A stretch of DNA of 64,000 bases from Ophiosphaerella korrae. Taxonomy: Eukaryota; Ascomycota; Dothideomycetes; Pleosporales; Phaeosphaeriaceae. Under the pieces are notes generated by a model. That model did not search any database and had not been told where the DNA came from. It was given only the letters and a program-made list of their open reading frames with translations. Numbering within the stretch: the first letter of the stretch is position 1; each line of letters starts with the position of its first letter. This document shows, one piece after another, positions 10,640 to 51,931 of the stretch. Made by a program: the position numbers and the translations under genes. The stretch covers positions 496,001 through 560,000 of the forward strand of contig JALNQF010000003.1 in assembly GCA_028456385.1 (NCBI GenBank), read 5' to 3'.

Positions 10640-12428
10640 ATGGATGTCCATGGGGAGCTGCCTTCTCTCAAGGCTACCGTTAGCTTAGGTGTGCGTTAGG
10701 TTGCCACGCTCCTTCTAACGGCTGCTACTGACATTAGTTATCCAGGGTCTAGCTAAATCTGACCTCCACACCGGTAATAAGAATCGATCCCACTTTCTTC
10801 TGCTCATGTAATTTTGACATCGTCTAGTCCAAGTATACGACGTCAAATTCTACCCGTATACGCTGCCTGGCGTCGACCCGGTCTTTGCCGTCTGTGGCGG
10901 CCCTCACGTATGTGATAACCCTGTGTTTGGCTTGCAGTAAGGCTTATTGGACCCAGGTGATTGTCTGTCGTTGTGTCTTGGAAACGAACCGTACGATCGA
11001 GATCCTGCAATGGTCTGAAAAAGAGCTGGAAAAGCCAACAAACGCCGTAAGCAACACGCACTGCGCCGCACCTCGCCAAAGACTACCTGCTGATTATTTT
11101 ACTTCTTCTGCAGTCCAGTGGCTATAACAGCCTAGCATGGTCGCAAGCTGAAAATGGTGATCCGTTGCTTTGCGTAGCTGGAGATGCGACCCGCCAGATC
11201 CATGTGTTTAATATCGCGACTAAGCAGCTTGTAGCGGTGCGTTCACCAAGTTTCGTTCAAATGCCCAAAATACTAACAAATTTAGTCGCTCATAGGACAT
11301 GGAGATGTAAGCCTGGTGTCTTTTTTTATTTCCTTTGAAATGCTAACTGATTTTGAGTCAATCGGTGATCTTGCGGTATCGCCCGTAGATCCTACAATCT
11401 TGGCATCTTGTAGTATAGACCATACTGTCCGCATATGGAGCCTAGATCCAGCACATAAAGATAAGCCACTAGCTGCAATTTGTTATGGTCAAGGCCATAC
11501 AGATCAGATACTAACACTCGCATATCATCACAAGGGCCGGTTCATCTTATCAGCTGGTATGGATACTAGAATAAACATGTGGGTAGTGCCCGATACCATA
11601 AAAGACCATGCTGGATCAGACAAGCCAATCATGGTCCACTATCCTCACTTCTCAACAACAGAAGTGCATACCGATTTTGTGGACTCTTTGAAATGGTATA
11701 ATGACCTTGTTTTCAGTCACGCCAGCCGAGAAGAAAAAATCATTCTCTGGAAAATTGACGGATTCAGTTCTGACCGTGCCGAAATACCATGCGCTCCAAT
11801 ACCCACATCAAAGGCCACCACAAGTCGCACTCCCGTAATAATTCCCGCAAATTCTCATTCAAGCACACGATCCGCTTGGGGTGGTCGTTTTCAGCGACTC
11901 CTTCAATTTGACCTACCAGACATATCCGGCTTCTATCTCCGGCTCTCACTTTTTCACGAACGTGGGCACCATCCGGTCCTCGTTGCAGGTAACGAAAAGA
12001 GTAGAGCTTTCTTCTGGGATTTACAAAAGCTTGAGAATTGTGGTACAGGGGAAGACAGCACCCAGAAGGAAGGACTCGAAGGGATTCCTCTTGGTCTGCC
12101 CCGCCACGTACGCGACGCTAGTGTTACTTCTACGGCCTCTTCTACAGTGAGCACTGGATCTAGCACAAGCAGGACTAAGACCAAGATTAAGAAGACAAAA
12201 ATAAACCTTCCGAACAAAGGCATCGGGGACCCTTTCATATCAATCCAGGCGCACAAGATCATCGAAATTCCCAAGTACAATACCTTCGCATTTCATCAAT
12301 TCGACTGGAGTCGCGATGGTCAATGGTGTGTGGGTGCTGGTGGAGGCGGAATGATAAATGTGTTTCATCGATGGGAGAAAGGGATTCCATCGGCCAGAAC
12401 AGATTCAGAATCTAATCTTCTGACGTAA
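10640..12428 (+). CDS. eed: EED/ESC-type WD40 protein, PRC2 subunit
   Basis: Seven exons (10640-10688, 10738-10773, 10828-10907, 10957-11046, 11114-11236, 11286-11306, 11358-12428) give 489 residues with continuous phase. WD40 repeats are evident, such as ILASCSIDHTVRIWSLDP, GHTDQILTLAYH, FILSAGMDTRINMWVV and FDWSRDGQWCVGAGGGG. The early segment VYDVKFYP..GVDPVFAVCGG is typical of the EED family. EED is the WD40 propeller of Polycomb repressive complex 2; it binds H3K27me3 and activates the EZH2-type methyltransferase. A low-complexity Ser/Thr/Lys insert (about residues 395-425) interrupts the late propeller. Exon 6 is only 21 nt. The first intron uses a TAG acceptor and intron 6 a GAG acceptor, so the first three exons are less certain than the rest. 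The product is nuclear. Confidence 0.87.
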
Positions 12429-41112: not shown

Positions 41113-42926
41113 CTAAGCAACAGTCTCACTCTTTCCGCTACCACCAATCAACTCGCTGACCCAATCGAAAAAGCTCTGTCCCTCCTTCGGTCCTGCGCCT
41201 TCGTCAGTCGTGGGTGGGAGCATTGGCTGGCCAGTTGCGCGCGGGCCGCTTGTTGGGCGAGCACCAGTTGGGGCAGGAAAGCCAGCACCAGGGCCGCCAG
41301 ATGGGCGCGGGCCACGCGATGGGCGAGGACGACGAGTGCGCGTAGCAAGTGTCGTGGGGCGGGGGGGACGGCCGGTACCGGGGAGGCCGCCGCCTGGAGC
41401 ACCGCCGCCAGGGGGCTTGGGGAAGCCGCCGGTGGGAGCTGGGACCTCGGGGTTTTCAGGTGAGGGTGTGGGGATGGGGAAGGGCGCGCCGCTCTCGGCT
41501 GGGGGTGGGAAGTCTGGGGAGTCTGGGCCGGAGGGAGGAGTGGGTTGGGTGGGTGCGCCGCCAGTGGGAGTGGGCCTTGGGGCACCGCCGGGTGAGCCGC
41601 CGGGTCGTTGGCTCGGCTTGAGGAGAGAGAAGGAGGGGAGAGGGGTATCGGCTTGTCTGGCTTTGATGTAGGCCGCTCCAGTGGTAGCAGGGGGTGCACC
41701 GCCACCTGGCTGACCTCCAGGTTGGCCTCCGGGTTGACCTCCTCCAGGTTGACCTCCAGATTGACCTCCTCCAGGTTGACCTCCAGATTGACCTCCTCCA
41801 GGTTGACCTCCAGGCTGACCACCAGGAAATCCACCAACTGGTTGGCCTCCAGGCTGACCTCCAGATTGACCTCCTCCAGGTTGGCCTCCAGGCTGACCTC
41901 CAGATTGACCTCCTCCAGGTTGACCTCCAGATTGACCTCCTCCAGGTTGACCTCCAGATTGACCTCCTCCAGGTTGACCTCCAGATTGACCTCCTCCAGG
42001 TTGACCTCCAGATTGACCTCCTCCAGGTTGACCTCCAGGCTGACCACCAGGGAATCCACCAACTGGTTGGCCTCCAGGCTGACCTCCAGATTGACCTCCT
42101 CCAGGCTGACCTCCAGATTGACCTCCTCCAGGTTGACCTCCAGGCTGACCACCAGGGAATCCACCAACTGGTTGGCCTCCAGGCTGACCTCCAGATTGAC
42201 CTCCTCCAGGCTGACCTCCAGATTGACCTCCTCCAGGTTGACCTCCAGGCTGACCACCAGGGAATCCACCAACTGGTTGGCCTCCAGGCTGACCTCCTGG
42301 TTGACCACCGGGCTGGCCACCAGGGAAGCCTGGGGAACCACCTCCAGGTTGGCCTCCTGGCATACCACCACCTGGTTGACCTCCGGGTTGACCTCCGGGT
42401 TGGCCACCAGGGAAGCCTGGGGAACCACCTCCAGGTTGGCCCCCTGGCATACCACCACCTGGTTGACCTCCGGGTTGACCTCCGGGTTGACCTCCGGGTT
42501 GACCTCCGGGTTGGCCTCCAGGCTGGCCTCCTGGAGAATCTCCAGGTGAACCACCAGGGGCGTCAGAAGGAGTGCTTGGTGGAGAACCTCCTGGGGCATC
42601 ACCACCGGGAGTCTCGGGAGTGGTTGGAGAACCGCCTGGAGCTCCACCAGGGGTGCCAGTTGGCGAGGGGAAGGTGCCAGTAGGGGCACCAAGCCCACCA
42701 GTAGCCGAGGGTATCAAGCCGATTGAGCTAGCCGCAAGGCTTGGGAAGTTGTTGTAGTCGTCTTGACGACGAACGTTACGGGCTTCAAGCTGAATGCCAA
42801 ACATGGCATCAACCACGCCGCCAAAAGGCACTATGACATATTAGTATACACATTAGAAGGAGAGAATAGAAAGAACATACCAGCGAGCGAAGATCCCGCA
42901 AGGGAAACGATGATAGCAGACTTCAT
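41113..42926 (-). CDS. Secreted Gly/Pro/Gln-rich PGGQ-repeat protein
   Basis: Two exons, complement of 42881-42926 and 41113-42830, encode 587 residues. Exon 1 encodes the signal peptide (MKSAIIVSLAGSSLA), and the 50-bp intron has a GTATGT donor and a TACTAAT branch site. After a short unique region (MFGIQLEARN..) comes a block of about 290 residues built from GGQP and GGGQ units, arranged in higher-order copies separated by PVGGFPGGQ. A Pro/Thr-rich region follows, then a short unique tail (FFDWVSELIGG). There is no cysteine framework and no anchor signal. Composition is like elastomeric or gluten-type proteins, suggesting a flexible extracellular or wall protein; that is analogy only. The repeat also keeps other frames open on both strands; these are shadows. 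Copy number probably varies between strains. Confidence 0.8.
41700..42530 (-). repeat. Tandem repeat encoding PGGQ units
   Basis: About 830 bases of 12-15-bp units (on the + strand, GGTTGACCTCCAGATTGACC and close variants), nested in longer near-identical copies ending in the PVGGF spacer at about 41820, 42050, 42150 and 42260. Confidence 0.92.
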
Positions 42927-44228: not shown

Positions 44229-45792
44229 TCATAGCCATCCAATGCGCTTTGCGGCATAGCCCCAGCCACTGAGCAAGGCAGTTACACCCGTAAAAGCAAT
44301 GAGAGCACCATAGCCACTTCCATATGCCATCCCTGTACCCCAGTTCCCCGCAAGCAGAAGAGCCTCGGATAGCGGACCGCTGCATAAGTTACCAACTCCT
44401 TTCCCGGCTGATAAACATGCCCATACCATGCCAGAGTCCGCGCCTCTTCGCTTTTCTTGAGTGTCACGAGTGATCGCACTCCATGCGCTGGACTGGCACC
44501 CTGCAAAAGCACCATATACGACACAAAAGCAATAGAGAGGGACAAGCGATGTGGACAGACCCCAGAGAAGAATGACACCCACTGCAGATCCTATAGCTGA
44601 TACAAGAAGGCAGTGGACGACATGGTATCTGTCAGTAGCAACTCCCATGCACAAACAGCCCACGAAGGCGGCGCCATTCAACAAAACAATGGTAGCGGTG
44701 CTTTGAATGCCATTGGCTCCAAGTGAACGGGCAAACGTCGGTAGGTAGATCGCAGGGAGGAAGAACCCGAGGCTTTGGATGATGTTCCCTGATTGCAAGA
44801 TCAGGAAATTCGAACAAGTCCAAAAGGACATGTCAAAGCTTCTCGATTGAGAAGTGTGCGATATTGGGAGCCGAGGTTTGAAGAAAAAGACGATCGGAAA
44901 GTTGAGTATGACGAATGAGAGCGCACACACTCTCAGGGTTGTTCGGAAGCCATATGAGTGAAGCAGCCATTCTAGGACGACTGGGAGAATCGCTCCACTC
45001 AGGCCTAGACCGGCCATCGCCACTCCGTATGCGAAGCCACGGCGACGCCTCATATCCGTACCTGTCAGTGTCAAAGTGATATAGTATTCTCGTGTTAAAT
45101 TAACTTACACCCACCACTCTTCAATGTAAAACAGAATAGGCGTCCAGGCCAAGCCACCGCCAAGCGCATAGATTATTCCTTGAGTGAGAATGAGATGCGG
45201 TACGCTTGTTGAGAATGACCCAAGACCGAGGGCGAGACACACAACGGTCAAACCAACAGGAGTGGCGTATTTGCGGAACCGAGGAAAATACTTCAAGATC
45301 GCAAACCCTGATACTGTCAGTACTAGGTAGATTGTATGTCTTACATGACATTGCTCAGGGATTGTTTCCCACATATTGATATATCCATATACATAATGCC
45401 CTAGGTTGAACTTAGTTTGCTAGAAACTACAAAAGTCGGTATAGGCAAATTACCATGGCGCAAGCTCCTATAACAGCAACGTTACTGGAGCCAGCAAAGT
45501 CATTTTTGCTATAGAACTCCTGGAAAATACCATATGAAGATGGGAATCCTCGAGTCCTGATTAGTGGAAGACTTTTGCATATTGAGAAGGCCATACCCCA
45601 GATAAGTGCTTCTAACATGAAGCAAGCCAGCAAACATAGCCATGCCTCTTTGCCTTTGTCGGTAGGTGGTAAAGAGAAGCCTTCATCGCCATTTGCCACA
45701 TTATGAAATGGCTCGATGTCGACCGTAGATGCGATAGAATGCTGTGGGTTGTGTGACGTCAATTCGACATGTGTACTGCAATTTGAAGCCAT
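44229..45792 (-). CDS. MFS transporter, monocarboxylate-permease type
   Basis: Four exons, complement of 45454-45792, 45373-45400, 45109-45307 and 44229-45048, give 461 residues in continuous frame. After a hydrophilic N-terminus of about 50 residues, membrane segments begin at WLCLLACFMLEALIWGMAF. GFPSSYGIFQEFY is the signature seen in fungal MCT-like permeases (MCH family). Later landmarks are GGGLAWTPILFYIEEWWV joined to RRRGFAYGVAMAGLGLSG, and LYCFCVVYGAFAGC. It probably moves an organic acid or similar small solute across a membrane; the substrate is unknown. Exon 2 is 28 nt. The intron after it needs a weak GTGGGA donor (45308-45372), because the stronger GTAAGA inside would leave an intron of only 36 nt. 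The last intron has a GAG acceptor. Confidence 0.83.
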
Positions 45793-46757: not shown

Positions 46758-46794
46758 TCCGATATGGTCTAGTGGCTAGGATTTGTCGCTCTCA

Positions 46795-46802
46795 TAGCAG
46801 TG
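46795..46802 (+). other. 8-nt tRNA intron at position 37/38
   Basis: TAGCAGTG lies immediately after A37 and before C38, the standard place for eukaryotic nuclear tRNA introns cut by the tRNA splicing endonuclease. C32 could pair with the G three bases from the intron's 3' end, as the anticodon-intron pair requires. Confidence 0.75.
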
Positions 46803-46822
46803 CCGACAAGGCCCGGGTTCAA

Positions 46823-46873
46823 GTACGTTCAGCCACCTTTGATATCAGATTAATCATACTAATGATTTCCTAG
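46823..46873 (+). other. 51-nt spliceosomal-type intron inside the T loop
   Basis: The insert begins GTACGT, contains TACTAAT (46857-46863) and ends TTTCCTAG, with about 10 nt between branch site and acceptor. Length and signals match the short mRNA introns in neighbouring genes. Its ends cannot slide, because the flanking bases differ, so the junctions are exact. Confidence 0.75.
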
Positions 46874-46896
46874 TTCCCGGTGTCGGAATCAATTCC

Positions 46897-46902
46897 TTTT
46901 TT
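46897..46902 (+). terminator. Pol III terminator of the tRNA-Glu gene
   Basis: A run of six T begins nine bases after the discriminator base, where RNA polymerase III terminators normally lie. Confidence 0.75.
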
Positions 46903-47801: not shown

Positions 47802-50800
47802 TTAACCAGAGAATCTGAACCGCGAAGCCTCCAATCGACCCAATCCTTCCCTTGGCGCAACGTTTCTTCTGCGATAGCTGGTTGTGAAATCTTGCAAGAT
47901 GGTCCTAATCATCCGGACATCGCCAGTCTGTATGCGCTGTCGGATATTGTTCAGGAAGCGTTCGCTTTCTTGGGGCGTGATGCTGCCTTGTGGTAGCATG
48001 CTGACAGTATTGGCCACCCACTGGGCGACCTGTTCAGGCATGAGTTCAAATAGGTCAAGTAGCACACCCGACGAGTCGGCAAAAGCACCTTCAGGGAAAC
48101 TGTACATCATGCCGGTCATGATGCACTGGACGAGTTCAACGCCGGTACGCATTACGAGTTCCTTGACACGGTTTCGCAACGCTTCGGGTATATTATGTCG
48201 TGTGGTGTCAAAACTAGACGAGGGTGAAGAATTGCGTCCGTATGCTAAAAGGTCCCGAAGGAAGTGTAATGTGGCGATGATCGGATCCTCTTTGAGGAGG
48301 GTGAGAGCGTTGCAAGATGCCAGAATGATAGTGTCCATGAGAGGTGATGATATTGACTCAGACGGAAAGTAGAGCGCCATATCGGCAGCGAGGCGGAAGT
48401 AATCTTCTATAAGGTCGGGCAACTCCTCTGGCGGTAGGTCGTTCAGGATCTTGAGGAAGGTCTTTGCCTGCTGCTCGTAGAATTGATACACGTCATTGGC
48501 TAGACTTGGATCAACCTCATCCACCCCTTGTGAAAATTCTCGGACTACTGAGGCTGTTGCCCAAAGGAAACATCCTTGTTTGGAAGCCTCGAAGCCTTCG
48601 GTCAATTTGGTGGCGAGCTCGGGAAGAAGCGGGCGCATAGCAGTACGATAGGATAAAACCATGTACCGCCAGCATCGACAAACTCTCTCGAGAATTGGTA
48701 TGCTCTTGTTGAAGTGTGTGATTATATTTCCAAGCATGGGGAATATTTCTTGGCAGTACTTGACCGCGGGGTGTTCTTGGCCGGAGGGTATTTCTGGTTT
48801 GACTATTCCCACAAAGATTGTAATCAGATTGATTTGGTCTATTCGATTATCAGTTATAGCTCTTCAATATGACGTACTAGTGCATAACTAACCAGCAAGT
48901 AGCTTCTGCTCTGGTTCGTCTTTTGCCTGCTGTGCAATCGCGACTAGATGCTGCATGACTGGATCCAGGTAGATTTTGAGTGTCTGGTAGAGCTGGTCGT
49001 TGGGTACCTTGGCAACTACAGATGCTACACCTTCGGTTATCTCTTCCTGACTGCTGATTGGGAGGCTGTTCAGATGTTTTGCATAAAACTGCTGAAGAGG
49101 GAGTATGAAGTTGACAAGCAGACTAGCACAGTCGTTGCAGAAGAACTTGAATGATAGTGCAGCAGCTCGAATGACATCTTTAGTCGAATGCTCAAAGGCT
49201 GCCATGATAAAGTCCAGTTGAGGCTGTAATGTGTCGGGGTGCTGCGCAGTCCACTCTGTGTACCGGCCAAGAGCCATTACTGCTTGGAAGCGAAGTTTGT
49301 TATGGTCGGGTATCGATGCGATGAGCGGTATGAGACGAGGTAGCATGACATCCTCATCAGAAGGTACCATTCGGCCCATCGCCCGTACAGCGAACAACGG
49401 CGCCTCCAACTTTTGCCATTGGGGCACATTGCTTGCATTTGCCTGTGGACCGTATGTCTGCACCCATTGCTGGATAAGACCATACGGTTTTCGCAGACAC
49501 TCCACAACGCCCATGACTTCACAACAATCCTTCAGCACATCACCCATTTGATGACGGAATTCGCGGAACTTTTCTTCTGCGTCGCGGTCGCCCTCGAACA
49601 GATCTTTTTCGTCGCCGCTGTCCGGCTTCGGGAACTCAAGATGGCCAATCATGACATCGACTAACTTGGAGTATATGTCCAAAGATTGCACCCTAGCCTC
49701 CGCATATTTGTCGATTGTGAGATACTGCTTCAGGTCGTACCAGAATTTGAATGTATGTGAGATCGCATCCCTCTCCTTGTCAAGAGCAGCTGCTTCTAGA
49801 ATCGCCTCAACAAGACTTCGGAAATCGGACGGTAACCGTGCGATCAACAAAACCCAAGATTCGCCAGCTTCCGCAAAAACTTTGGCGATGCCCTTGAATT
49901 TCTCTAAGTCTTCTTCCTGGGCTGCTTGAACCAGTTTTGGACGAAGAGCAACCACCTGTGGGTATAGGGCAAGGATCGATGGCATAGTTTCGTCTACATC
50001 TCGGGTCTCAGCTATTAAAGCGCTCATACATTCGACAGCGGCATCGAATGGCTCCCCTTCTAGTACGGATAGGTCGTCGACAACGATTTTGAGCAAGGGA
50101 GAATTTATGATCGAGTCTAAGGGGATTTCGCGCATCCAGGAAGTTATGCAATTCAGGAGCTGTGGGTTACGGGTAGCTGCGGCTAGGAAATGTCAGGACG
50201 CAACGAATGGTGGGGGGAAGGGCGAACGGACGTGATGATATAGCATATCGAATGAGAAGCTCCAGAGCTTGCTGGGCGTTGTCTTCGATCAACTCGGCCG
50301 TCCTCATAGTCAATTCGTGTTCCTGGCCACCAAGTATTAGACTCTAACTCTGATATCATGTGTCGGTACCGCGGGGATGTGCCGAGGCTGGAAAAACATG
50401 GACTGTTGCGGCTCGATGGAACGTACTGTGAGAGCGATCTTTCGTCCATGCGTAACTTCTTCAGGCAGAACGCGTAGGAAGTCCAGAACGCAAGGTAGGG
50501 TCGCTGGATCTGTTCCAAGGGCATTGACCACGTCTGTGAGGACCTCCTTCCATTCCGTCATTTGTATTGCTAGATTAGCAAGACACACACACAGCTGCAA
50601 CCTAATGGGCTTGGGGCCGGCATGAAACGTTGCAAGATTGCGCATGATGGATGCTCGAAGCTCTGGAAGCTGTGCACGTGGTACTTGGTGGAGATCGTAC
50701 ACGATCTGGCCGTGTTAGAGACGAAGCAGCAGAGGGTTCGACAGCATACCTTTCCCTTCAGTGTCGTGGCGGCGAACAGTTTTGCTGCTGCATCAGCTGG

Positions 50801-51436: not shown

Positions 51437-51931
51437 ATGACTGGACGAGGCGGTTTGTATATTGCCTGTCTGCCTCTGCGACAACTGCTAACAAGCCCCA
51501 GGCCGCGGTGGAGGAAAAGGTACGGACCGACTGTGCCACGTACATCACGCACTGCGGCAGTACTAATGTCTTCATAGTCCTCCTCCCTCCCATCAACTTC
51601 ATCTTCAAGCTTTTGCAGTCACGGGCAAGTGTCTCAGTATGGCTCTATGAGAACTTGGGGATGCGCATCGAAGGAAAGCTTAGGGTGCGATTTCCCTCGC
51701 CCTAGTCGTAATTGGCGTACTAATAGAGTTGCAGGGTTTCGACGAGTTCATGAACCTCGTAATCGATGACGCGGTCGAGGTCACACTTGCAAATCCAAAG
51801 AAGGATATACCTGAGGGCCGGCGCAACGTTGGTCAGTGTGGTAACTGGAATCTTGCAGGGCTAGCTGATGCATCACAGGCCAAATCTTGCTTAAGGGCGA
51901 CAACATCTCTCTCATTCAACAGATCCAATAA
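51437..51931 (+). CDS. sme1: Small nuclear ribonucleoprotein SmE
   Basis: Five exons (51437-51452, 51502-51519, 51578-51684, 51735-51831, 51879-51931) encode 96 residues. The first two exons, 16 and 18 nt, encode the Gly/Arg-rich start (MTGRGGRGGGK). The Sm1 motif region includes FIFKLLQSRASVSVWLYENL and GFDEFMNLVIDDAVEV, and the Sm2 motif is ILLKGDNISLIQ. SmE is one of seven Sm proteins that form the ring on U1, U2, U4 and U5 snRNAs, so it is a core spliceosome component in the nucleus. Four introns in under 500 bp make this the most intron-dense gene here. The exon structure is well supported because each junction restores the Sm fold sequence. Confidence 0.94.

Follow-up and report, generated by a model that had tools for sequence, protein, structure and literature searches.

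Putative spliceosomal introns in nuclear tRNA genes of the fungus Ophiosphaerella korrae

Introduction

How can a nuclear tRNA gene whose T loop is interrupted by 51 nucleotides give rise to a tRNA? The question is raised by a tRNA-Glu(CTC) gene of Ophiosphaerella korrae (Pleosporales), which lies in a window of 64,000 nucleotides, the whole stretch of DNA analysed here (contig JALNQF010000003.1 of assembly GCA_028456385.1, positions 496,001 to 560,000). The splicing of tRNA and that of mRNA are usually treated as separate systems with separate substrates, and in a 2026 review of non-canonical splicing the tRNA pathway is described as spliceosome-free. An earlier note on this DNA had read the block as a U2-type spliceosomal intron, and its author knew of no described case. 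Our searches of the open-access literature likewise turned up no nuclear tRNA gene reported to have a spliceosomal intron (bioRxiv and most subscription journals lay outside that scope), and could not find an earlier description of tRNA being made through spliceosome-type introns.

Results

Anatomy of the interrupted tRNA-Glu gene

The features of the gene are listed in Table 1. As it stands, the gene is missed by ARAGORN and by the Rfam tRNA model at its gathering score. With the 51-nt block excised, which joins GGGTTCAA to TTCCCGG, ARAGORN calls tRNA-Glu(CTC) across the whole gene; with the block left in, it makes no call. The claim that the cloverleaf is complete only without this block was right in that removal is required, but an 8-nt intron at the usual position 37/38 must go as well. 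To call the junctions unambiguous was slightly too strong: T-arm geometry alone allows three registers, with same-length removals shifted by +1 or +2 nt still forming a 5-bp stem and a TTCRANN loop, and it is the GT...AG ends that pick one of them. The intact A box was read against the A-box consensus, and the N59-T60 positions of the B box are occupied by the GT of the intron.

Table 1. Features of the tRNA-Glu(CTC) gene, in window positions
Feature	Positions	Strand	Basis
tRNA-Glu(CTC) gene, 131 nt unspliced, 72 nt mature	46758..46888	+	ARAGORN on spliced form
A box / D-arm internal promoter TGGTCTAGTGG, intact	46765..46775	+	read by eye
Anticodon CTC of tRNA-Glu	46791..46793	+	ARAGORN cloverleaf
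Canonical 37/38 tRNA intron TAGCAGTG, 8 nt	46795..46802	+	cloverleaf and copy alignment
B box of unspliced gene, GGTTCAAGTAC	46816..46826	+	matrix score 10.6
Spliceosomal-type intron, 51 nt, T-loop site 58/59	46823..46873	+	alignment, signals, T-arm geometry
5' splice site GTACGT	46823..46828	+	intron table
Branch site TACTAAT; branch A at 46862, 11 nt before intron end	46857..46863	+	intron table
3' splice site TAG (block ends CCTAG)	46871..46873	+	intron table
T6 Pol III-type terminator, begins 8 nt past gene	46897..46902	+	

The closest open reading frames (ORFs) of at least 250 amino acids, at 44229-45104 and 47802-50192, are ones that we take to be transporter-like and importin-like, respectively; the homologue source of the latter bears the name 'transportin-3'. 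Among the 120 homologues listed for this importin, the top match stands at 91%, and the one assigned to a named organism, Teratosphaeriaceae sp. CCFEE 6253, at 60%. Elsewhere in the window, positions 41113-42840 hold an ORF of PGGQPGG-type repeats that is long in several frames.

Three tRNA-Glu(CTC) genes carry the block

The whole 131-nt gene, searched against the 63-Mb genome, was found at three places with no further copies: the window gene (contig C223), C845:35921-36051 and C1:750303-750433. A genome-wide search with its first 25 nt, allowing up to three mismatches, led to the same three genes alone. When aligned, these genes have identical exons and unrelated flanks, and their canonical introns differ by one T/C (the C1 copy reads CAGCAGTG). 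Their T-loop introns agree in 40-44 of 51-52 columns, next to adjoining exon bases (20 + 15) that are identical, and keep GTAYGTTCA, ACCTYTGATATCA, CATACTAATG and TAG while the remaining positions vary. Since the same block occupies the same place in two further copies, and recurs in other tRNA families, its presence in the window gene is not due to chance. The block is neither an isolated case nor an acquisition of a single copy. Following the check proposed in the earlier note, an uninterrupted Glu(CTC) copy was looked for and not found; all three genes found carry the block, and none of them was recovered by a genome-wide RF00005 search.

The intact T arm of Glu and Gly, CCCGGGTTCRATTCCCGG, has no exact match in the genome and two at two mismatches, which we read as genes for Glu(TTC) and Gln(CTG); ARAGORN called the latter, unspliced, as Lys. 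The Glu(TTC) gene is uninterrupted, so Glu(CTC) itself may be dispensable.

Interrupted tRNA genes across the genome

The earlier proposal of a U2-type intron in the T loop of a nuclear tRNA remains the best reading of the block, and such introns recur. We found 25 spliceosomal-type introns in 24 nuclear tRNA genes of ten amino-acid families, counts that are lower bounds, as the patterns allowed few mismatches and the assembly of 974 contigs is possibly incomplete. By reading, the introns lie at 58/59 (16), 54/55 (3), 53/54 (2), 25/26 (2), 34/35 (1) and 11/12 (1). None occupies the canonical 37/38 site, where a separate intron is usually also present.

A gapped pattern made up of the T loop, GTANGT, TACTAAY and YAG matched seven places, compared with none for its reversed control. 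Six of these became callable tRNAs once the block was cut (three Glu, two Gly(GCC) and Leu(TAG)), and the seventh, on C279, is by reading a tRNA-His gene with a second such intron at 25/26, which was called His with both introns cut. The ungapped 5' junction GTTCRAGTANGT is not itself enriched, because it gave 53 matches against 93 for the reversed pattern; 50 of the 53 were tested together and the other three (C845, C974 and C667:355271) earlier. Fourteen of the 53 fall in tRNA genes, 13 of them called and the C279 His gene read: three Glu, two Gly, Leu(TAG), two Leu(AAG), Leu(TAA), two His, Asp, Ile(TAT) and Arg(TCG). ARAGORN calls at L092 and L098 were dropped as spurious, with four-base anticodons in AT-rich sequence.

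Because GTANGT is built into the T-loop patterns, we also searched with D-arm patterns, which demand nothing of an intron. A GT-AG or GC-AG intron outside 37/38 was present in 17 of 34 nuclear tRNA genes from these searches (0/3, 6/9, 4/10, 3/8 and 4/4, search by search). Left out of the 34 were five matches on C92, taken as mitochondrial, a mitochondrion-like copy on C2, the repeat-borne C171, C477 and C769, matches that are not tRNAs, the unassigned L125, L127 and L144, and two further matches (C556:350314 and C734:102062). D-arm patterns are blind to introns that break the D arm itself, as in Gln.

L125, L127 and L144 are tRNA-like genes whose anticodon arm is unassigned, and further introns are possible in them. 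The C2 copy (L021, C2:113942-114013) is a mitochondrion-like tRNA-Val on a 568-kb contig, and its D arm matches copies on the 88-kb C92, which is probably mitochondrial. L037, L038, L047, L049 and L050 are tRNA-like copies rich in AT; the upstream flank TTCTTAAACTAGTATCTTAT is common to three of the five, and they probably represent a dispersed repeat with a tRNA-like part.

The interrupted genes include a Gly(GCC) gene on C790 with a GC-AG intron (GCAAGT...TACTAAC...CAG), read by eye since the script demanded GT; Asp genes on C80 and C101 with introns at 53/54; a Trp gene on C142 (25/26); Leu(CAG) genes on C81 and C112 (54/55); and a Gln(CTG) gene on C52, which turned up through the T-arm check and has the intron GTAAGT...GCTAAT...TTAG at 11/12. 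Pro(TGG) introns were found at 54/55 (C973:122830) and at 34/35 (C973:124059, from the RF00005 list); these genes, the two found for Pro(TGG) (L016 and L151, C973:122823-124082), stand about 1 kb apart in opposite orientation, with different intron sites.

In several families, no uninterrupted copy is present among the genes found: the introns occur in 3/3 Glu(CTC), 4/4 Gly(GCC), 2/2 His, 1/1 Trp and 2/2 Leu(CAG) genes. One Asp(GTC) copy, C778:15791, is uninterrupted, yet by reading it has an A.C mismatch in the T stem. Window ORFs make ordinary use of the codons for His, Trp and Gly (GGC/GGT), with 100, 57 and 177 occurrences, respectively, among the 4095 codons of nine hand-picked, uncurated ORFs.

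The two His genes, on C135 (L079, C135:161237) and C279 (L055, C279:142002-142209), are identical once spliced. The C279 gene has three introns, spliceosomal-type ones at 25/26 and 58/59 and a long canonical one; its 25/26 intron (53 nt, GTAAGC...CTAAC...CAG) is absent from C135. This pair makes the cleanest natural experiment on the presence and absence of an intron. Two non-fungal collections, genome_contigs and viral_contigs, held no match to the exact gapped pattern, and viral_contigs none to a 26-mer, results that are silent on relatives of the fungus.

Splice signals of the introns

Twenty-two introns were tabulated first, after which the two of Leu(CAG) and then that of Gln were added. 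All 25 keep their splice ends, measure 49-53 nt and start with GTANG or GCAAG. In the tabulated set, G1, A3, G5 and a YAG 3' end are present in 22/22, with T2 in 21 and C2 (GCAAGT) in one. The search demanded GTANGT for 14 of the 25 introns and TACTAAY for seven. The 11 introns found without the GTANGT demand begin with GTAAGT (five), GTAAGC (three), GTATGT, GTAAGA and GCAAGT, all of them GTA or GCA with G5.

In 24/25 introns there is a YTRAY whose A lies 9-14 nt before the 3' end. Before Gln was added, the count was 23/24, versus a mean of 2.0 in shuffles; for the 18 introns not picked by TACTAAY it was 17, versus a mean of 1.4 and a maximum of 6 in 2000 shuffles. The stricter CTAAY was present in 15 of 18 introns not selected for a branch site, versus 0.5 in shuffles, and missing from three of all 25 (His C135, Arg and Asp C334), of which Asp C334 also has no YTRAY. 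The GT/GC-AG ends with a GTRNGY-like 5' site, and the branch site at a set distance from the 3' site, are those of U2-type introns.

The earlier note likened the block to mRNA introns of neighbouring genes. Introns of window protein genes inferred from reading frames (for example 11237-11285, 51685-51734 and 56324-56279) look alike, at 46-50 nt with CTAAY; they were picked for their branch site out of 36 unverified candidates, of which some are plainly false. As side observations, a YACY motif recurs near intron positions 13-16 in several 58/59 introns, TGATATCA-like stretches are present in Glu and His introns, and the intron sites seem to prefer loops and junctions.

Predicted folding of the tRNA after excision

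Excision gave a full-length ARAGORN call in 24/24 genes. ARAGORN is permissive, however, as removals of the same length elsewhere were also called (288 of 1655), and it was rejected as sole proof of excision; the case therefore rests on splice signals and T-arm geometry. In 5 of the 24 spliced genes, the isotype or anticodon given by ARAGORN differs from our reading (the anticodon of both His genes, one Asp, one Pro and Gln). Unspliced, with introns of up to 60 nt allowed, a single gene of the 24 was called full length (Trp, as Gly); when longer introns were allowed, Pro(TGG) C973:124059 was called Leu and Gln was called Lys.

A 5-bp T arm with a TTCRANN loop formed after excision in 20 of 21 scripted cases, the Arg miss resulting from a wrong gene end entered in the script. 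When alternative removals of 30-80 nt around the 21 T-arm introns were tried, 32 of 24,227 also left a perfect T arm, and the 20 of these that were inspected are shifts of the same block by +1 or +2 nt. By reading, the Trp tRNA has an A.C mismatch at 31-39. In 8/8 paralogue pairs compared, both genes have the same exon sequence around the intron (20 bases upstream of it and 15 downstream) but not the same intron.

Pol III promoter and terminator elements

B boxes were scored with a matrix built from 24 uninterrupted T arms of the same genome, which themselves score 6.7-16.4; A boxes were read by eye and left unscored. In the unspliced 58/59 genes, the B box reads GGTTCRA followed by GTAN (GCAA in one) and scores 9.4-12.4. 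In the 53/54 genes, the AG of the intron makes AGTTCGATTCC, with a B-box score of 15.2. The exonic B box of the 54/55 genes falls to 1.9. The Leu(CAG) introns each hold a GTTCGA box of their own, one scoring 12.0 (shuffle p 0.01) and the other 7.7 (p 0.02); in these two genes (L156 and L157) the element stands at an almost equal intron position. Internal B-box scores with p <=0.03 were obtained for 5 of 24 introns (both Leu(CAG), Arg and two Glu), where about 0.7 would be expected. In Gln, the final TAG of the intron precedes GTAGCGG, and an A-box-like TAGGTAGCGG survives, as read but unscored.

Of the 23 genes measured (Gln left out), 21 have a run of at least four Ts that begins 4-18 nt past the gene; for the two Leu(AAG) genes the T runs lie at +34 and +37. 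The longest T run within any intron is four. An A box, a B box and a T-run terminator, the elements of a Pol III gene, are thus present, with the exception of Pro(TGG) C973:122830, in which the B box is broken and the best substitute scores 2.1; this gene counts against a promoter rule. We take the B boxes and T runs as evidence for probable Pol III transcription of the unspliced gene.

Likeness between introns

Introns of paralogues are strongly alike, and those of different families at most weakly. Among 300 pairs of all kinds, the best likeness between families is that of His and Glu, with a z of 4.4 once the branch region is excluded; an earlier z of about 5 was rejected as inflated because its shuffles broke the shared branch site. 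Likeness between families may reflect either a common origin or a shared function. Introns at 58/59 occur in seven families (Glu, Gly, Leu, His, Asp, Ile and Arg), a recurrence that could stem from transfer between T arms, from repeated gain, or from retention only where the promoter survives.

Discussion

We consider it very probable that the nuclear tRNA-Glu gene works, that its 51-nt block is a U2-type spliceosomal intron, and that many tRNA genes of the fungus carry such introns. We propose that Pol III would transcribe the entire gene by way of the A box and of a B box preserved despite the insertion, and that an intron of 49-53 nt would be taken out, presumably by the nuclear spliceosome, its loss allowing the T arm, D arm or anticodon loop to fold. 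The canonical 37/38 intron would be cut by the tRNA endonuclease, and the ends would then be processed as in other tRNAs, in an order of steps that we infer.

A different route to the same tRNAs would keep spliceosomal removal and release them from Pol II transcripts, with no meeting of Pol III and the spliceosome. Spliceosomes normally act with Pol II, and the Pro(TGG) gene at C973:122830 has no convincing B box. Against this stand the runs of four or more Ts that follow 21 of the 23 genes measured at a distance of at most 18 nt, with no run of five or more in the introns, and the B boxes across the 58/59 junctions, at 53/54 and within the Leu(CAG) introns. These terminators and B boxes point to selection for Pol III, and we consider release from Pol II transcripts unlikely. 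The blocks could also be cut by the tRNA splicing endonuclease, in the manner of ectopic introns in Cyanidioschyzon, archaea and the Guillardia nucleomorph. The enzyme is evidently active, since most tRNA genes read have canonical introns. GT-AG ends and a placed branch site would not be expected of its substrates, however, and a bulge-helix-bulge, scored in strict register alone and with no positive control, averaged 1.33 of 4 central pairs over 24 introns, where chance gives about 1.5. We regard endonuclease cutting as very improbable, marginally more so than the idea that the genes are dead copies, which we also hold to be very improbable.

If the insertions had destroyed these genes, uninterrupted genes would do the work elsewhere, and searches that tolerate few mismatches in 974 contigs, with lower bounds for each family, might have missed them. 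Yet the three Glu copies share identical exons amid unrelated flanks, every His, Trp and Gly(GCC) gene found is interrupted, and all 25 introns keep their splice ends. That the GT-AG blocks are a coincidence of pattern searching draws on the motifs built into the searches for 14 (GTANGT) and seven (TACTAAY) introns; but the intron-blind D-arm searches found half of their genes interrupted, including the GC-AG case and sites at 53/54, 54/55 and 25/26, and the gapped pattern matched seven places against none for its reversal. With recurrence on many contigs, chance or artefact was rejected, and we give coincidence almost no weight.

Reading the blocks as spliceosomal introns places them near several known systems. 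The U6 snRNA gene of fission yeast has an mRNA-type intron in a Pol III gene that is spliced out (PMC10484740). There, as here, a spliceosomal intron would sit in a Pol III gene, but U6 is part of the spliceosome, whereas the hosts here, tRNA genes, have their promoters inside the gene; in the present genome, the sequence matching U6 is full-length (99 nt) and has no intron. The 18S rRNA genes of ascomycetes also contain spliceosomal introns (Cubero 2000; Bhattacharya 2000, both as cited in PMC11889510); these are likewise non-coding RNA genes of fungi, and differ in being transcribed by Pol I and in the kind of RNA. The canonical 37/38 endonuclease introns share the same genes, most of which have both, and differ from the blocks in position, ends, uniformity of length and branch site.

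For Cyanidioschyzon merolae, archaea and the Guillardia theta nucleomorph, tRNA genes are reported with ectopic introns outside the usual place, in some cases more than one per gene (PMC4090602, PMC3978253). Those of Cyanidioschyzon and archaea are described there as of the bulge-helix-bulge type and endonuclease-cut, a structure unsupported here in strict register; in the nucleomorph a defined bulge-helix-bulge is often absent. Introner-like elements of Dothideomycetes, by which spliceosomal introns spread in fungi, are reported as multiplying (PMC4457414), whereas the tRNA introns here are at most weakly alike between families; an introner-like origin, as raised in the earlier note, may still apply to them.

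It seems somewhat more probable than otherwise that this fungus needs the spliceosome to make the tRNA used in translation, that spliceosomal introns have repeatedly entered tRNA genes, that two splicing machineries serve one and the same pre-tRNA, and that the tolerated introns mostly rebuild a Pol III promoter. The GT would continue the B box at 58/59, the AG would complete it at 53/54, the Leu(CAG) 54/55 introns would supply a whole B box, and in Gln(CTG) a TAG would serve as the beginning of the A box.

Genes of this kind can escape standard tRNA finders, as the window gene escaped ARAGORN and the Rfam model. If the proposal is true, about half of the tRNA genes sampled by D-arm searches would need the spliceosome, which would join tRNA and mRNA splicing; the spliceosome would be able to work on strongly structured Pol III transcripts, the tRNA genes of this fungus would form a natural set of pairs with and without introns in RNA genes, and translation capacity would depend on splicing capacity.
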